Below are positions 10,869-21,130 of a stretch of DNA of 41,286 nt, one piece after another. This DNA is from Nitrospirota bacterium (GTDB lineage Bacteria; Nitrospirota; Thermodesulfovibrionia; Thermodesulfovibrionales; SM23-35). The stretch lies in NCBI GenBank assembly GCA_040754395.1, contig JBFMCL010000024.1, positions 1-41,286 on the forward strand, in the 5' to 3' direction. Made by a program: the position numbers and the translations under genes. Position 1 is the stretch's first letter; each line of letters opens with the position of its first letter. A model generated the notes under the pieces. It worked only from the letters and a program-made list of their open reading frames with translations, did no database searches and was not told the DNA's origin.

Positions 10869-11351
10869 ATGAAAAGACTGCTATTGATGTTTGTATTGTT
10901 GGCGTTGTGGACAACGGCCTTTGCACAGACAGGAACCCATGGCGGGATGCAGGGGCATGAGATGATGCCTGAAAAAGGAAAGCAGATGCCCGTGATGCAC
11001 TGTCCCGGGATGCAGCAGATGTCCGGCGGTATGATGCGCGAAGGAAAGCAGATGCCTGCGATGCAGATGTGTCCCATGATGGGATCTGGCATCATGCAGG
11101 ACATGATGACAATGATGATGGATATGATGGACATGCAGGAAAAGATGCTTAAGGGAGTAAAGGCTGCCGACAAGAAAAAAATGATGACGGATATCGCCGG
11201 GATGAAGAAAAAACTCCAGGAAATGATCGAGACGTGCAAGTGTCAAATGCACAAAATGATGCAGCATCACATGACGGAACCCCCCGCACAAGCCGGAGGG
11301 ACGGAAGCAGATAAACCTGCTCCTCCTGCAACTGAACCGCACAAGCATTAG
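10869..11351 (+). CDS. Secreted Met/His-rich protein, probable periplasmic copper binder
   Basis: A 160-residue exported protein. It has a clear Sec signal (KRLLLMFVLLALWTTAFAQ). The mature part holds many Met, His and Gln residues in MM, MxM and HxM spacing (for example MQQMSGGMMREGKQMPAMQM, and MMTMMMDMMDMQEKM), then a basic helix with two Cys (ETCKCQMHKMMQHHM) and a Pro/Ala/His-rich tail. Such Met motifs bind Cu(I) in periplasmic copper-tolerance proteins. I do not recognise a named family. GGGAGG precedes the ATG. It is cotranscribed with the YHS gene and followed by a strong stem-loop. A second Met-rich secreted protein is encoded at 18200. Copper binding is inferred from composition and neighbours. 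Confidence 0.8.
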   Translation: MKRLLLMFVLLALWTTAFAQTGTHGGMQGHEMMPEKGKQMPVMHCPGMQQMSGGMMREGKQMPAMQMCPMMGSGIMQDMMTMMMDMMDMQEKMLKGVKAADKKKMMTDIAGMKKKLQEMIETCKCQMHKMMQHHMTEPPAQAGGTEADKPAPPATEPHKH

Positions 11352-13102: not shown

Positions 13103-13180
13103 ATGGATGCCAGTATGCATGCAGATATGTTCACTGACGGCTTTGCGTATATGGCAAGAGGAATGTTGCCGGGGCAATAA
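13103..13180 (+). CDS. Possible 25-aa leader peptide before the DUF1566 gene
   Basis: ATG at 13103 opens a 25-codon frame (MDASMHADMFTDGFAYMARG, then five more residues) whose TAA overlaps the ATG of the next gene as TAATG. Five Met in 25 residues echoes the Met-rich proteins nearby. The overlap would allow translational coupling, which would explain the poor ribosome-binding site of the following gene. The ribosome-binding site of the peptide itself is also poor, so this is a weak call. Confidence 0.25.
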   Translation: MDASMHADMFTDGFAYMARGMLPGQ

Positions 13181-14232
13181 TGAAGGGCTGCCTTTGGACC
13201 GGCCAGATCACATGTCATGATACTGAGGGAAGAGAAGTGCCCTGCAGCGACAGCGGCCAGGATGCAGAGTTCAGGACAGGCATCCCATGGCCTGAGCCGA
13301 GATTTAAAAAGGAGGGAGATACGGTTCTGGATTGTCTCACAGGGCTTGTGTGGACAAAAAATGCGAATATTGCGGAATATCCTCTGATGTGGCAGGAAGC
13401 CCTTGATTACATCGCTGATAAGAACCATGAAAAATTGTTCGGTTACAGTGACTGGAGGCTTCCGAACCGACGGGAACTCAGAAGCCTGATAAGCTTCCAG
13501 ACAATAAAGCCTGCGCTTCCCGAGAATCATCCTTTTATAAATGTATTCCCCGGCTGGTACTGGACATCCACCACTTCAGCAGTGAATACTGCGTATGCCT
13601 GGTATGTGCATATGGAAGGTGCCAGGATGTTCTATGGAGGAAAGAAACAGAACTATATCGTCTGGCCTGTGAGGGGCGAAGGGTACGGGATACTGCCAGC
13701 AACAGGACAGTCCGGATGCTTTGATGCGGAAGGACGGGTTATGCCCTGTAACGGAACAGGTCAGGACGGAGAATTCAGGCATGGCCAACCATTGCCTGAA
13801 AAACGTTTTGCAGTTTATGGGGAAGCGGTGATTGATAACCTGACAGGACTCTGCTGGGTAAAAAAAACATCCCTTGCGGGCAGGCCGGTGACGTGGAAAG
13901 ACGCGGTCGAGGCTGTCGGTTCACTCAATCAGAAGGCCGGGACGACAAAACCGTGGAGGTTGCCGAATATCAATGAACTTGAATCCCTCGTGGATGCACG
14001 GACGCACAGCCCTGCACTTCCCGAAGGCCATCCCTTTGAAGATGTTCAGGAAGGGTACTGGTCCTCAACCACGAGCATGTTCGGGCCGGACTGGGCCTGG
14101 GTATTGTATATGGCGAAAGGAGCTGTGGGAGTCGGGCAGAAGCCGGGTGCACACTTCCATGTATGGGCAGTAAGCGACTCCGTTACTACTGATGCTTTCC
14201 TGAGAACATATACCTTCCGGGTAATGCGCTGA
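13180..14232 (+). CDS. DUF1566 protein with two tandem domains
   Basis: A 350-residue protein of two similar halves, each with the DUF1566 (Lcl C-terminal) pattern. The half-starts align: GREVPCSDSGQDAEFRTG and GRVMPCNGTGQDGEFRHG, then LTGLVWTKNAN / LTGLCWVKKTS, WRLPNRRELRSL / WRLPNINELESL, and YWTSTTS / YWSSTTS. These domains have a C-type-lectin-like look and usually occur in surface or exported proteins of unknown role. Here no signal peptide is visible at the ATG used. Upstream of it in frame a stop lies at 13135, so the gene could only be slightly longer. The ribosome-binding site is poor and coupling to a short peptide is possible. It shares direction with the copper genes; its role there is unknown. 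Confidence 0.82.
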   Translation: MKGCLWTGQITCHDTEGREVPCSDSGQDAEFRTGIPWPEPRFKKEGDTVLDCLTGLVWTKNANIAEYPLMWQEALDYIADKNHEKLFGYSDWRLPNRRELRSLISFQTIKPALPENHPFINVFPGWYWTSTTSAVNTAYAWYVHMEGARMFYGGKKQNYIVWPVRGEGYGILPATGQSGCFDAEGRVMPCNGTGQDGEFRHGQPLPEKRFAVYGEAVIDNLTGLCWVKKTSLAGRPVTWKDAVEAVGSLNQKAGTTKPWRLPNINELESLVDARTHSPALPEGHPFEDVQEGYWSSTTSMFGPDWAWVLYMAKGAVGVGQKPGAHFHVWAVSDSVTTDAFLRTYTFRVMR

Positions 14233-14260: not shown

Positions 14261-14280
14261 ATTAGGATAAGGAGTCTGGA

Positions 14281-16686
14281 ATGCAGACCGGCAAGGTTGA
14301 CAAAATGCAATCGCAAAAAAGCATTATCATCATCGCGGCCATAGTGCTCGCTTTCTTTTTTGCCGCTGTGCAGGCGTATGCAGCGACCGTTGAATACGAT
14401 CTCATCATAGACGAACAGGAGCTTAATTTTACCGGAAAGCCTGTGCGGGCAATGACCATAAACGGGGGCATTCCCGGACCCGTCCTCCGCTTCAGGGAAG
14501 GCGATGTTGCCCGCATCAGCGTCCGTAACAGGATGAAGGTGGAAACCTCCATTCACTGGCATGGCCTGCTTGTCCCGAATGATATGGACGGGGTTCCCTA
14601 TGTTACCTTTCCGCCTATCGCTCCGGGTACCGTGTTTATCTATGAGTTCCCGCTTCGCCAGAACGGCACGTACTGGTACCACTCCCATACCAGCCTGCAG
14701 GAACAGAGCGGCATTTACGGTGGCATCGTGATCGAACCGCATCATGATGGCATAAAGTCCGACCGGGACTATGTTGTTCTGCTCTCTGACTGGACTGATG
14801 AGTACCCGCATGAAGTACTCCGGACACTCAAGCGCGGGAGTGAATGGTATGCGGTCCGGAAGAACAGCGGACAGAGTATCCTCGGCGCGGCATATCTCGG
14901 GATGCTCGGCGACTATCTCTCGCGCGAGCTCCAGCGCATGCCGGCAATGGATATTTCCGATGTCGCGTATGACCTTTTTCTGGCCAATGGCAGACCTGCG
15001 GTGTCATTGCCGGCAGAGCCGGGTGAAATTGTGCGGGTGCGCATTATCGACGGCTCTTCAACAACCTATTTCCATCTCGAGTTCTCGGGCGGACCCATGA
15101 CCGTCGTCAGCGCAGACGGCCAGGATGTCGAGCCGTTCCGGGAACAGCGTTTTCTCATCGGTGTTGCGGAAACCTACGACGTGATTGTCCGCGTGCCGGG
15201 CTCAGGCTCCTACGAATTGCGGGCAACCGCCCATGACGGGTCTGGTCATGCCTCGGTATGGATCGGTTCCGGCACCCGGTTTCCAGCTCCGGCTGTGCCA
15301 AGACCGAATCTCTATCATGCCATGGGAGGGCTCAGCCTGAAACAGCTTTTCTCGCTGACACCTGCTGGCGTAATGGGAATGTCTGACCGCGATGTTGAAA
15401 ACGGCGTTTTTGACCGTCCCGGTATGATGGGAATGGGTTCGATGGAAACTGGCCACATGCATGGTGCCCGTAACGACACGCATATGCCCGGCATGAGCGG
15501 GGCCAGTTCGCATCATCTGCCGGATGCAGCCGGTCCGGTACACAACACCGGTGCCACGATGCATCATGACGGACACGAAATGGGGCAGATGGAACATGCG
15601 GATGCCGGAACGACCGGAACAACGCATATCGGGGAGTCCGGCAGACGTCGCATCCTGTATCGGCTTCTTTCCGGAGATGCCGCTTCTTGGGGGGATCTTG
15701 CCCATGACGGGATGGACTCAGGCCGTCCCTGGCCTCCGTATGAAAAACTGCGCGCCACAAGGAACACCGCTTTTTCCGGGGAAAAACCTGTACGGGAGTG
15801 GCGCCTTACCCTCGATGGCGACATGGAGAGATATGTCTGGTTTCTCAACAACAGGCCGCTTGCTGAAAGCGATTCGATACTGATTCATCAGGGCGAGGTC
15901 GTGCGGTTCATCATGATCAACCGCACGATGATGCACCACCCCATGCACCTGCACGGCCACTTCTTCCGTGTGCTCAACGGGCAGGGGGACTATTCCCCGC
16001 TGAAGCATACTGTCGATGTTGCGCCCATGTCTACCACAGTCATTGAATTTGATGCAGAAGAGCCAGGCGACTGGTTCTTTCATTGCCACCTTCTCTACCA
16101 CATGAAGAGCGGCATGGCCCGTGTCCTGCATTACGATGGTTTTGCCATGAATCCGGATCTCGCTGCAGTCAGGCCAGTGCTCTATAAGGATGCCTGGTAT
16201 ATATGGGGAGAGGCTTACCTGCTCAGCAACATGACCGAAGGGATTCTTGTGCTTTCAAACACCAGAAACATCCTGTCGGCAGAATGGGAGGCGGGATGGC
16301 AGACAGTCGAGGACACCGTGTGGGAAGGTATTGTCACATGGGACCGTTATCTCAACCGCTTTCTCAAGGTCTTTGCCGGCGCTGACCTTGAAGGCGTCGG
16401 TGACGTACTTGAAGATGTGCGCGCAGTCTTCGGGATTCGCTATCTCCTGCCGCTCAACATCGAATCGCGTCTGTGGGTGGATTCAGACAGCGGTGCGCGC
16501 ATTGCGCTCGAAAAACATCTTGAACTCACACCTCGCCTCATGCTTTTTGGCGAAGCCGAATACGACACCCGCGACTTCTGGGAAGGAAAGGCAGGCCTGT
16601 CATATAGCGTGAACAAGAAGATATCCCTTCTCCTTCAATGGCACTCTGATTACCGGCTGGGCGGAGGCATCAGTATCAGCTTCTGA
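14281..16686 (+). CDS. Multicopper oxidase fused to a CopB-like outer-membrane barrel
   Basis: An 801-residue export protein that probably oxidises Cu(I). A Sec-type signal (about 12-35, IIIIAAIVLAFFFAAVQAYAA) replaces the Tat signal usual in CopA oxidases. Cupredoxin domains follow, with copper ligands HWHG (92-95), HSH (134-136), HPMHLHGH (553-560) and HCHLLYHMKSGM (601-612). A Met/His-rich insert (about 365-440, with GMMGMGSMETGHMHG) resembles the Cu-loading insert of CopA. After about residue 636 the oxidase ends and a CopB-like segment follows: alternating strands with RAVFGIRYLLPLNIESRLWV, LELTPRLMLFGEAEYDT, and a final ISISF whose terminal Phe is an outer-membrane insertion mark. That part is about 165 residues, shorter than full CopB. 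AAGGAG lies six bases before the ATG. The oxidase is certain; the barrel is a strong reading by eye. Confidence 0.88.
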   Translation: MQTGKVDKMQSQKSIIIIAAIVLAFFFAAVQAYAATVEYDLIIDEQELNFTGKPVRAMTINGGIPGPVLRFREGDVARISVRNRMKVETSIHWHGLLVPNDMDGVPYVTFPPIAPGTVFIYEFPLRQNGTYWYHSHTSLQEQSGIYGGIVIEPHHDGIKSDRDYVVLLSDWTDEYPHEVLRTLKRGSEWYAVRKNSGQSILGAAYLGMLGDYLSRELQRMPAMDISDVAYDLFLANGRPAVSLPAEPGEIVRVRIIDGSSTTYFHLEFSGGPMTVVSADGQDVEPFREQRFLIGVAETYDVIVRVPGSGSYELRATAHDGSGHASVWIGSGTRFPAPAVPRPNLYHAMGGLSLKQLFSLTPAGVMGMSDRDVENGVFDRPGMMGMGSMETGHMHGARNDTHMPGMSGASSHHLPDAAGPVHNTGATMHHDGHEMGQMEHADAGTTGTTHIGESGRRRILYRLLSGDAASWGDLAHDGMDSGRPWPPYEKLRATRNTAFSGEKPVREWRLTLDGDMERYVWFLNNRPLAESDSILIHQGEVVRFIMINRTMMHHPMHLHGHFFRVLNGQGDYSPLKHTVDVAPMSTTVIEFDAEEPGDWFFHCHLLYHMKSGMARVLHYDGFAMNPDLAAVRPVLYKDAWYIWGEAYLLSNMTEGILVLSNTRNILSAEWEAGWQTVEDTVWEGIVTWDRYLNRFLKVFAGADLEGVGDVLEDVRAVFGIRYLLPLNIESRLWVDSDSGARIALEKHLELTPRLMLFGEAEYDTRDFWEGKAGLSYSVNKKISLLLQWHSDYRLGGGISISF

Positions 16687-16933: not shown

Positions 16934-17641
16934 ATGGAAAAAAGGCGTTTCAAGAGATTTTCCGTGGCTTCCATGGAGATCCATGGAAGAATCCTTTTTT
17001 CCACTGATATCAATGTGCTCAATATCAGTGTGGGTGGCCTTGCCTTCAGCACCGATAAATATCTCACCATGGGAGGGATTTATGTGCTGAAACTGGAAAG
17101 CAAAGGCAGTTCACTGTTTTTGCAGGGAACCATTGTATGGTCAAAACAGCATGAAAGCGTCCATGGTGATACTGGTACTGTTCCAGTCAACAGTTTTGGG
17201 ATGAAGTTCTTGCATGCTTCAGATACCCAGCGAAAGGATATCGAGAAATTCATCAGAGATCATTTCGTGGAATATCAGAGAATTAATGATGTCCCCAAAT
17301 ATGTCAGCGGTATCAGAATTCATGTCAGATGCCGTATCAATAACCCGGAAAAGGCCGTCATTAATTGCTCTGAGGGGTACAAAGTGAAGAAGATCAGCCA
17401 GAGCGGCATGCTTATAGAAAGTGCCAACCTGCTGAAGACCGAAGAGAGAGTCCCCATGCAGATGACACTTGCCGAACGCAAACATATCACGTTTTGGGGA
17501 AGGATTGTCACGTGCCAGGCAAGACGGATGAAAGAACAGCTGCTTTATGATATCGGAATAGAATTCGTCGAGATGACAGAAAGAGACAGCGTCATGCTCG
17601 GGGATTTTATTCATTCTCTCGAGACCCAAAAAGCTTCCTAG
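16934..17641 (+). CDS. PilZ-domain protein (tandem, cyclic-di-GMP type)
   Basis: A 235-residue cytoplasmic protein. The first half has the c-di-GMP signature: RRFKR at the start (RxxxR, residues 3-7) and NISVGGL, a (D/N)xSxxG form, about 25 residues later, with GTIVWSK and GMKFLHAS completing the PilZ barrel. The second half repeats the pattern in degenerate form (HVRCRI, then KKISQSGMLIES, GRIVTC, DIGIEFVEM), so it reads as two PilZ barrels in tandem. Only the first keeps the full binding residues. AAGGAAAG precedes the ATG. It lies alone between two copper transcription units; a link to copper is not evident. Confidence 0.85.
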   Translation: MEKRRFKRFSVASMEIHGRILFSTDINVLNISVGGLAFSTDKYLTMGGIYVLKLESKGSSLFLQGTIVWSKQHESVHGDTGTVPVNSFGMKFLHASDTQRKDIEKFIRDHFVEYQRINDVPKYVSGIRIHVRCRINNPEKAVINCSEGYKVKKISQSGMLIESANLLKTEERVPMQMTLAERKHITFWGRIVTCQARRMKEQLLYDIGIEFVEMTERDSVMLGDFIHSLETQKAS

Positions 17642-18199: not shown

Positions 18200-18604
18200 A
18201 TGAAAAAAGTGCTGGTTATTTGTATTCTCGTTCTGGCGGTAAGCGCAGGGTACAGTTTTGCCCAGATGGGCGAAGGCATGATGGGCGGCAAGATGGGTGA
18301 GGCAGGACAAGGGCATATGATGACCCAAAAGGGCATGATGGAACATGGCCGGATGATGGGCGGGATGATGGACATGACACATCAGATGTCCGGAATGATG
18401 GGCCAGATGTCCGGGATGATGAAGGATATGCCCGCGGACAGGATGAAAGAGATGTCGGGAATGATGTCGGACATGTCCAAACAGATGATGGATATGTCAA
18501 AAATGATGGGGAAGGGCAAAATCTCGGAGAAGGATATGAAAAAAATGCAGGATAGCATGATGAAACTGCAGAAAAAAATGTCGGGGATGGGAATGAAGAA
18601 ATAA
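18200..18604 (+). CDS. Second secreted Met-rich protein
   Basis: A 134-residue exported protein that starts with a Sec signal (MKKVLVICILVLAVSAGYSFAQ). The mature part is nearly one third Met, in repeats such as MSGMMGQMSGMMKDM and MSGMMSDMSKQMMDMSKMM, mixed with Lys, Gly and Asp, and ends in a basic helix with MKKMQDSMMKLQKKMSG. There is no Cys and little His, unlike the protein at 10869. The frame is open further upstream, but the ATG at 18200 follows GGAGG and begins a normal signal peptide. It lies 228 bases before the Cu-ATPase in the same direction, with a strong stem-loop between. Periplasmic Cu(I) buffering is inferred from Met content and position; no named family is recognised. Confidence 0.8.
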   Translation: MKKVLVICILVLAVSAGYSFAQMGEGMMGGKMGEAGQGHMMTQKGMMEHGRMMGGMMDMTHQMSGMMGQMSGMMKDMPADRMKEMSGMMSDMSKQMMDMSKMMGKGKISEKDMKKMQDSMMKLQKKMSGMGMKK

Positions 18605-18668: not shown

Positions 18669-18832
18669 CGCGTCTGAACGGGAGATGATCAGACAAAAGG
18701 CATCTTTACTGCGCTGGCAACAAGGTTTTTTGCAATACTTGCCGGCCTTCCTGAAATGCAGGAGGACTAAGGAGAAGAATGAAATCGTGAACATGCCGGA
18801 AGGTTTTCTGTATAAGGGTGGGGGAGGAGAAC

Positions 18833-21130
18833 ATGAAAGTTACTGATCCAGTCTGCAAAATGACCATAGAAGATAAAGACGCTGCCGGGACATCCTCATA
18901 TAAAGGCAAGACTTACTATTTCTGCGCAGAACAGTGCAGGGATGATTTCGAGAAAGCCCCGGAGGCCTATCTTGGGGAAGCGGCTATTCCGAAGGGCGAA
19001 GAAACGGGTTCCGTGTCCGCAAAGAGTGCCGCAGGGATGGCAAAAGACCCAATTTGCGGGATGGTTATTCCCAAAGAGCGTTCGATCAAGAGAGTGGTCG
19101 GAGAGAGAGAATACTATTTTTGCAGTGAAACCTGTGTGAAGACATTCGAGGCCCCTGAAGCAGAGTTGAAAGATATGAAAAGGAGGGTGACCATCGCCCT
19201 CACCGGCGTGCTCGCCCTGGCTGTCTTCAGAGCGGCCATATTTCTCGGCCTTGCGGCAGGAGCGACAGTCCTTACTTGGGTTCCTTTTTCGTTTCTTCCG
19301 TGGTTTACCGCGGGTGTATGGCTCTTCATCATCACCACTCCGATAATGATTTTCGGAGGAAAAGGATTTTTCATCGGGGCGTATCAGGCCCTTAAGCAGC
19401 GTATGGCCAATATGGACCTCCTCATCGCGCTCGGCACATCAACTGCCTATCTTTACAGTGCATTTGTGGTGTTCTTTCCCGGGGTCCTCCCTGTGCAGGA
19501 AAAGAATGTCTATTTTGACGTTTCGGCAATTATCATTGCGTTTGTCCTCTTCGGAAAATATATGGAGGAGATTATCAAGAAAAGGAGCTCAGCTGCCATA
19601 CGAAAGCTGCTCGATCTCAGGCCACAGACCGCACGGGTAATAAGAGACGGCGCCGAGGCCGAGATACCTGCTGATATGGTTTTGATAGATGAGATAGTGG
19701 TTGTCAGGCCCGGAGAAAAAATACCTATGGACGGCATTGTGACAGACGGGCATTCGTCTGTTGATGAGAAGATGATCACGGGAGAAAGCGTCCCCGTCGA
19801 GAAACAGGCGGGGGATGAAGTAATAGGCGGAACCATGAACAAGGTCGGGTCCTTCAAGCTCAGGGCAACAAGAGTTGGTGCCGATACGACGCTGAATCAG
19901 ATAATAAAGATGGTGGAGGAGGCACAGGCATCGACCGCGAATATTCAAAGGCTTGCGGACAAGGTGGCGTCCTATTTTGTCCCTGCGGTGGTCAGTGCCG
20001 CATTTCTGTCGGCTGCCGGATGGGTATTATTCGGCAATTATACCTCGGCGCTTCTTTCATTTGTTGCTGTGCTTATTATCGCCTGTCCGTGCGCACTTGG
20101 CATCGCAACCCCTGCCGCCCTAATGGTCGGCGTGGGAAAGGGCGCTGAACTGGGCATCCTGATACGGGGAGGGGAATATCTTGAAAGGGCCGAGAAACTG
20201 AATACAGTCGTTTTTGATAAAACGGGTACGCTTACCAAAGGGGAACCGGAGGTTACGGAGATAGTATCTTTTGACGGAAAACCTGAAGATGTCATTCTCT
20301 CCGCATCCATAGCAGAGAAAGATTCGGAGCATCCGCTTGCAGAAGCCATAATGAAAAGGGCCGGCATGATGAATCTCGCCGTACCCGATGCCGAAACCTT
20401 CGAAGCAATACCCGGTCATGGCGTTAAGGTTACGCATAATGGCAGAGATATCCTGATAGGGAACAGAAGGCTGATGAAAGATATCGGAATTCCTGTGGAG
20501 GATAAAGAGGCTGCGATTTCGCGTCTTGAGGAAAAAGGCAATACGGTTATTATTGTAGCTGAGGACAGGAAACTGAAAGGACTTGTGGCCGTGGCTGACA
20601 CACTGAAGGAACACGCCGGCATTGTGGTGAAAGAGCTCCGGTCTGAAGGGATTCAGGTGATCATGCTGACAGGTGATAATGAACGGACAGCAAAGGCTGT
20701 CGGTGGAAAGGTCGGCATAGAAAGGATCATTGCAAATGTGCTTCCTGGTGACAAGGCGAAAGTCATTAAGGAGCTTCAGTCAGAAGGGAAGGTGGTTGCA
20801 ATGGTCGGTGACGGTATCAATGACTCGCCTGCACTGGCCCAGTCGGACATAGGCATAGCCATTGGGAGCGGGTCGGATGTCGCGAAAGAGACGGGAGGAA
20901 TCATACTCGTGAAGGATGAACTGACAGACGTGATTAAGAGCATCAGGCTTTCAAGGGCGACAATGCGGACGATCAAGCAGAACCTCTTCTGGGCATTTTT
21001 CTACAACACCGCCGCGATACCAATTGCGGCATTTGGCCTTCTGAATCCTATTATCGCGGCGGCGGCGATGTCGATAAGTTCCCTGTCCGTGGTAACCAAC
21101 TCGGCGTTGCTGAAAAGGGTGAAGATATAA
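18833..21130 (+). CDS. copA: Cu+-exporting P1B-type ATPase with two N-terminal YHS domains
   Basis: Pumps Cu(I) out of the cytoplasm using ATP. Start chosen at the ATG at 18833, behind GGGGGAGGAG, rather than the GTG five codons earlier; 765 residues. Domains in order: YHS 1 (about 3-48; [14 protein letters not shown]), YHS 2 (about 70-108; [14 protein letters not shown]), then eight membrane spans with the actuator TGESVPVEK, the transport motif CPC (418-420), the phosphorylation site [11 protein letters not shown] (Asp462), SEHPLAEAI, and [16 protein letters not shown]. Later spans carry [11 protein letters not shown] and [12 protein letters not shown], the pattern of Cu+ (P1B-1) pumps. There is no HMA (GMxCxxC) domain; two YHS domains take its place. 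A DUF302 gene follows after 18 bases. Confidence 0.94.

Follow-up and report, generated by a model that had tools for sequence, protein, structure and literature searches.

In most bacteria, the copper-resistance oxidase and the outer-membrane pore are separate proteins. The pore PcoB is a 12-stranded barrel resembling OmpLA, with both termini on the periplasmic side (PMC9210255), and the separate protein has a long, disordered, Met/His-rich N-terminus with a stabilising effect on PcoA and perhaps a docking role (PMC12509749). The direction in which PcoB works is debated, with uptake proposed in one study (PMC9210255) and efflux, with the disordered N-terminus docking PcoA, in another (PMC12509749). 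Joined forms have also been mentioned: a fused PcoA-PcoB was noted in five Legionella species, in one sentence of the accessible text of Hernandez-Montes et al. 2012 (PMC3548706), and the available part of a 2024 study gives the Bizionia argentinensis multicopper oxidase G2EDV6 a PcoB-like C-terminus (PMC11213822). In the openly licensed literature, we found no paper treating the fusion as a class. A sequence-only reading of the locus described here had contrasted its single chain with the separate CopA and CopB genes of known operons; the fusion proved real, whereas the implied novelty is reduced, since PMC3548706 and PMC11213822, as far as their accessible portions go, precede it. The fusion itself is therefore not new, but its breadth, its single branch and its switch of export route appear to be undescribed.

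The gene lies in a window of 41,286 nucleotides, the whole stretch of Nitrospirota DNA that was analysed, and occupies positions 14281-16686 of the plus strand as a single uninterrupted frame of 801 codons, with a putative ribosome-binding site, AAGGAG, at 14269-14274 (+) backing the ATG at 14281. Oxidase and PcoB-type barrel share this one reading frame. The N-terminal part is a three-domain multicopper oxidase, all on the plus strand, composed of a Cu-oxidase_3 domain (residues 45-154, positions 14413-14742; PF07732, E 1.7e-39) with HWH and HSH copper motifs, a Cu-oxidase domain (residues 163-318, 14767-15234; PF00394, E 1.5e-18) and a Cu-oxidase_2 domain (residues 509-616, 15805-16128; PF07731, E 1.3e-32) with HPMHLHGH and HCHLLYHMKSGM motifs. 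The ligands of the T1, T2 and T3 copper sites form a complete set (H92, H94, H134, H136, H553, H556, H558, H601, C602, H603, H607 and M612), and the same 12 were invariant in an alignment of 43 fused proteins, in agreement with the four copper motifs read from the letters alone. The best NCBIfam model was TIGR01480 copper_res_A, far ahead of the other models at 424.1 bits and below its curated cut-off of 478.95. A Met/His-rich loop had likewise been recognised earlier; it lies between domains 2 and 3 (residues 384-469, 15430-15687, +), is predicted to be disordered (pLDDT <50), and residues 378-470 hold 10 Met and 11 His.

The chain starts with a putative Sec-type signal peptide (residues 1-34, 14281-14382, +), with a hydrophobic helix at residues 9-27 and a cut, placed by eye, likely after AYA. 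No twin-arginine motif could be read in this signal, so that the Tat export usual in the CopA/PcoA (TIGR01480) family is not indicated for the window protein. The signal is Sec-like, in line with the earlier reading, and a Tat motif was present in 0/39 fused proteins, compared with 19/24 separate oxidases, or 20/24 with PRRRFLQ of L028 included. The association between Tat motif and fusion state had p 8e-13 in a Fisher test, which is not proof because the fused rows form one branch, and the pattern thus represents one evolutionary association rather than many. Three separate CopA-type oxidases (L025, L026 and L027) also have no RR pair, so that Sec-type export is, judged by signal motifs, not peculiar to the fusion. 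In two genomes of this set (G119 and G273) a separate CopB adjoins the oxidase, which suggests that Sec export may have preceded fusion. These three oxidases are possible intermediates before fusion.

Prediction of the whole chain by AlphaFold2 with 42 relatives (mean pLDDT 83.4, pTM 0.82) placed a 12-stranded barrel at the C-terminus, with low confidence confined to one long segment, the Met/His-rich loop at 384-469, and to the short segments 1-7 and 27-31. Between oxidase and barrel, a short tether with one predicted helix at 625-634 (residues 619-639, 16135-16197, +) stands where PcoB has its long disordered N-terminus. The predicted CopB/PcoB-like barrel follows (residues 640-801, 16198-16683, +), with strands at 640-648, 651-659, 663-672, 680-690, 695-706, 709-723, 727-734, 739-748, 753-762, 766-776, 781-788 and 792-800. 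The last of these overlaps GGGISISF, an end resembling a beta-signal (residues 794-801, 16660-16683, +), in which G794 and G796 were invariant and F801 was conserved at ≥90% in the alignment of fused proteins. The earlier estimate of about 165 barrel-like residues ending in Phe was thus close, the strands covering 640-800 and being followed by F801. Predicted by itself, the barrel reached a pLDDT of 94.1. Its fold is that of PcoB 7PGE, which ranked first against the PDB both in Foldseek (E 1.3e-6) and in VIA-align (Z 17.0, rmsd 3.2, 162 residues aligned), where it was followed by the porins VhGalP, KdgM and NanC (Z 14.5-14.9) and by OmpLA (Z 13.7); the general 12-strand fold is common to porins such as KdgM and NanC (Z 13-15). 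A fold search with the full chain was dominated by laccases and was uninformative on the barrel, and the sole match of the C-terminus in an hmmsearch of PDB sequences was a designed 12-strand barrel (E 0.013).

Kinship to CopB was visible at the level of profiles. Residues 636-801 matched no named family in Pfam or NCBIfam, and the direct PF05275 match anticipated in the earlier reading failed to appear for the window C-terminus at E 1; a TamB match of these residues (E 0.27) was dismissed as chance. Because phmmer with the single C-terminal sequence did not recover the Halomonas CopB, profiles were needed. A CopB profile that combined 30 CopBs of the window's phylum with a Halomonas one matched the profile of fused C-termini at 94.8% probability with 11 fused sequences, and in hhalign at 96.7% (P 4.4e-10) with 56, above the level of other barrels. 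As controls, the reversed CopB profile reached 1.2% and 30 column-shuffled profiles at most 1.5%, while among unrelated E. coli barrels PldA scored 9.2% and Tsx, OmpT and OmpW <1%. Twelve single CopBs matched the fused profile at 89-96%, 50/56 fused C-termini scored above all 1,120 shuffles with a CopB HMM, and the fused relative in the genome of L096 exceeded the PF05275 cut-off itself (28.8 vs 27 bits). The disordered Met/His-rich region that precedes the barrel in CopB/PcoB was not found in the window protein, where the linker at 619-639 is partly helical and the Met/His-rich segment sits within the oxidase. We conclude from these profiles and the predicted fold that the fused C-terminus is a divergent CopB/PcoB barrel.

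Full-length fusions 61-67% identical to the window protein occur in other genomes, and full-length relatives are present elsewhere in the Nitrospirota, where the earlier reading had suggested looking. Fusions spanned at least 10 phyla, including Thermodesulfobacteriota, Nitrospirota, Acidobacteriota, Verrucomicrobiota, Planctomycetota, Bacteroidota, Myxococcota, Bdellovibrionota, Chlamydiota and Pseudomonadota (many of them metagenome bins), and full-length relatives were carried on plasmids of Hymenobacter, Spirosoma, Pontibacter, Flavobacterium, Bernardetia and the fusobacterium Ilyobacter. The viral contigs searched contained no fused relative. In a quick tree of 68 oxidase domains, whose separate oxidases were almost all from Nitrospirota, the 46 fused ones formed one side of a fully supported branch, apart from the separate CopAs, and fusions from Flavobacteriaceae and gammaproteobacteria other than the published Legionella and Bizionia proteins also sat on the fused branch. 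This grouping would fit a single origin of the fusion followed by wide transfer. In the tree, the window oxidase sits beside copies of Thermodesulfobacteriota, Myxococcota and Acidobacteriota and not beside that of its own family (G138/L005), a placement suggestive of horizontal transfer. A match was present in only 1/9 other genomes of that family. A tblastn match in Halomonas HAL1 spanning copA and copB was retained as a lead only, not as a fusion, since copA and copB lie in one and the same frame in that strain.

Genomes with the fusion mostly have no separate CopB. None was detected in the window's genome; PF05275 occurred in 42/296 genomes of the phylum, none of which carries a fused gene, and a clear separate CopB was seen in only 2/37 further fused genomes. 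On this pattern of gene content, the fusion seems usually to take over from the separate CopB. The fused oxidase-barrels L120 and L121 (genomes G302 and G313) occur together with a clear separate CopB.

The surroundings of the gene in the window fit copper handling. Downstream, a Cu-type P-type ATPase with two N-terminal YHS domains is encoded at 18818-21130 (+; PF00122, PF00702, PF04945), in which Pfam detected no heavy-metal-associated (HMA) domain. Two small secreted-looking Met-rich proteins with no Pfam family flank the oxidase, one downstream (18200-18604, +; 28% Met) and one upstream (10869-11351, +; 21% Met), and their composition makes periplasmic copper binding a possible role for both. 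A histidine kinase gene also lies upstream. Directly 5' of the oxidase is a protein with two Lcl_C (PF07603) domains and no evident copper link (13180-14232), and just 3' of it a protein with two PilZ stretches (16934-17641), the start of which contains a terminator-like hairpin (16968-16989). A scan of the neighbours of fused genes in other genomes showed varied partners, none of them constant.

Taken together, sequence and model confirm one chain joining a copper oxidase to a predicted small outer-membrane barrel, a fusion that is real and widespread. Sequence and predicted structure lend good support to an oxidase anchored at the outer membrane through a BAM-type barrel, and the PcoB-like barrel and Sec-like signal agree with the tethering proposed in the sequence-only reading. 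We consider it rather probable that the protein is a covalent CopA-CopB (PcoA-PcoB) copper-tolerance unit, exported by Sec, tethered by BAM and oxidising Cu(I) beside its own channel. Sec would carry the unfolded chain across the inner membrane, BAM would insert the C-terminal 12-stranded barrel, and the oxidase would fold and acquire copper in the periplasm after export. Because PcoB has its two termini in the periplasm, a linker of about 20 residues (619-639) would be expected to suspend the fused oxidase below the outer membrane, at its inner face. There, the Met/His-rich loop would collect Cu(I), the oxidase would convert Cu(I) with O2 to Cu(II), and the adjoining barrel would serve as a copper channel for Cu(II). 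We infer Cu(I) oxidation, channel function, transport direction, location and folding order by analogy with the PcoA/PcoB literature. The N-terminal region of PcoB is gone and an oxidase stands in its place, as would be expected if docking had become covalent. Transport may differ from that of PcoB, because the fused barrel is shorter and is not preceded by a Met/His-rich N-terminus. A broader proposal, that the fusions are a class that arose once and was widely transferred, always exported by Sec, metallated in the periplasm and passing Cu(II) from oxidase to own channel, so that oxidation and export would reside in one polypeptide, is tentative, and we would lean slightly against it in this full form.

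Other readings of the gene and its product were weighed against this one. Separate copA-copB genes are frequent in the same phylum, from which a sequencing or assembly error could have merged two genes; however, dozens of independent genomes show the same join, with similar C-terminal lengths and on one tree branch, and these independent copies rule out an assembly error, the probability of which we put close to nil. The frameshift that would split the frame into two genes was thus not borne out. A multicopper oxidase could also have independently acquired a C-terminal porin unrelated to CopB, as the missing PF05275 match of the window copy and the nearly equal fold fit of the porins KdgM and NanC might suggest. 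The fused profiles nevertheless match CopB far better than unrelated E. coli barrels, and one fused relative passes the CopB cut-off, which makes an unrelated porin very improbable.

The function of the barrel leaves more room for alternatives. It could be a mere anchor or insertion device that holds the oxidase at the outer membrane and conducts no copper, given its size of about 160 residues, its short loops, the missing PcoB-type metal-gathering N-terminal region and a sequence far more variable than that of the oxidase (two invariant columns across 45 rows, partly owing to a gappy alignment). The nearest relative in fold and homology is, however, the copper channel PcoB rather than a generic anchor, and separate CopB is usually missing from fused genomes, the barrel apparently being its replacement, so that we regard a pure anchor as unlikely. 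The metal could also be another one, for example Fe(II) or Mn(II), in a porin-oxidase whose task would be metal oxidation or extracellular electron transfer instead of copper defence. Environmental MAGs contributed several of the relatives, from lineages with a known anaerobic metabolism. For iron oxidisers, moreover, PcoAB has been put forward as a combined porin and oxidase (PMC5566968). Against this stand copper_res_A as the best family, the Met/His-rich loop, and the copper ATPase and Met-rich proteins close by, and we judge another metal to be quite improbable.

The covalent copper-tolerance unit that we favour touches two unsettled matters, the cooperation of PcoA with PcoB and the direction, import or export, in which PcoB moves copper. 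A natural one-chain form would set the PcoA:PcoB stoichiometry at 1:1 and place the oxidase at the periplasmic face of the barrel, and the loss of the N-terminal docking region fits the docking idea. With the fusion, structure and transport could also be studied on one protein, and the change from Tat to Sec would make it a clean case of an oxidase necessarily metallated after export.

Compared with separate PcoA/CopA and PcoB/CopB, as in E. coli pco or Caulobacter pcoAB, both parts of the fusion are homologous and even the order, oxidase then barrel, is shared. The separate proteins are two chains whose oxidase is usually exported by Tat, whereas the window fusion is one chain of Sec type, and it has no counterpart of PcoB's long disordered Met/His-rich N-terminus. 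The Legionella fusion (PMC3548706), as far as the accessible text describes it, likewise combines oxidase and PcoB barrel in a single protein, but that portion of the account gives no anatomy, signal or phylogeny for the fusion. G2EDV6 is also similar, with a signal peptide (1-19), three Cu-oxidase domains and then a porin-like C-terminus (611-809) resembling PcoB; unlike the window protein, it is a Bacteroidota copy, and the available part of the source terms it a periplasmic oxidase and does not discuss a tethered unit (PMC11213822). By analogy only, the fused cytochrome-porin Cyc2 places a redox domain and an outer-membrane barrel in one chain (PMC9040806), with heme in Cyc2 where the fusion has a copper oxidase.
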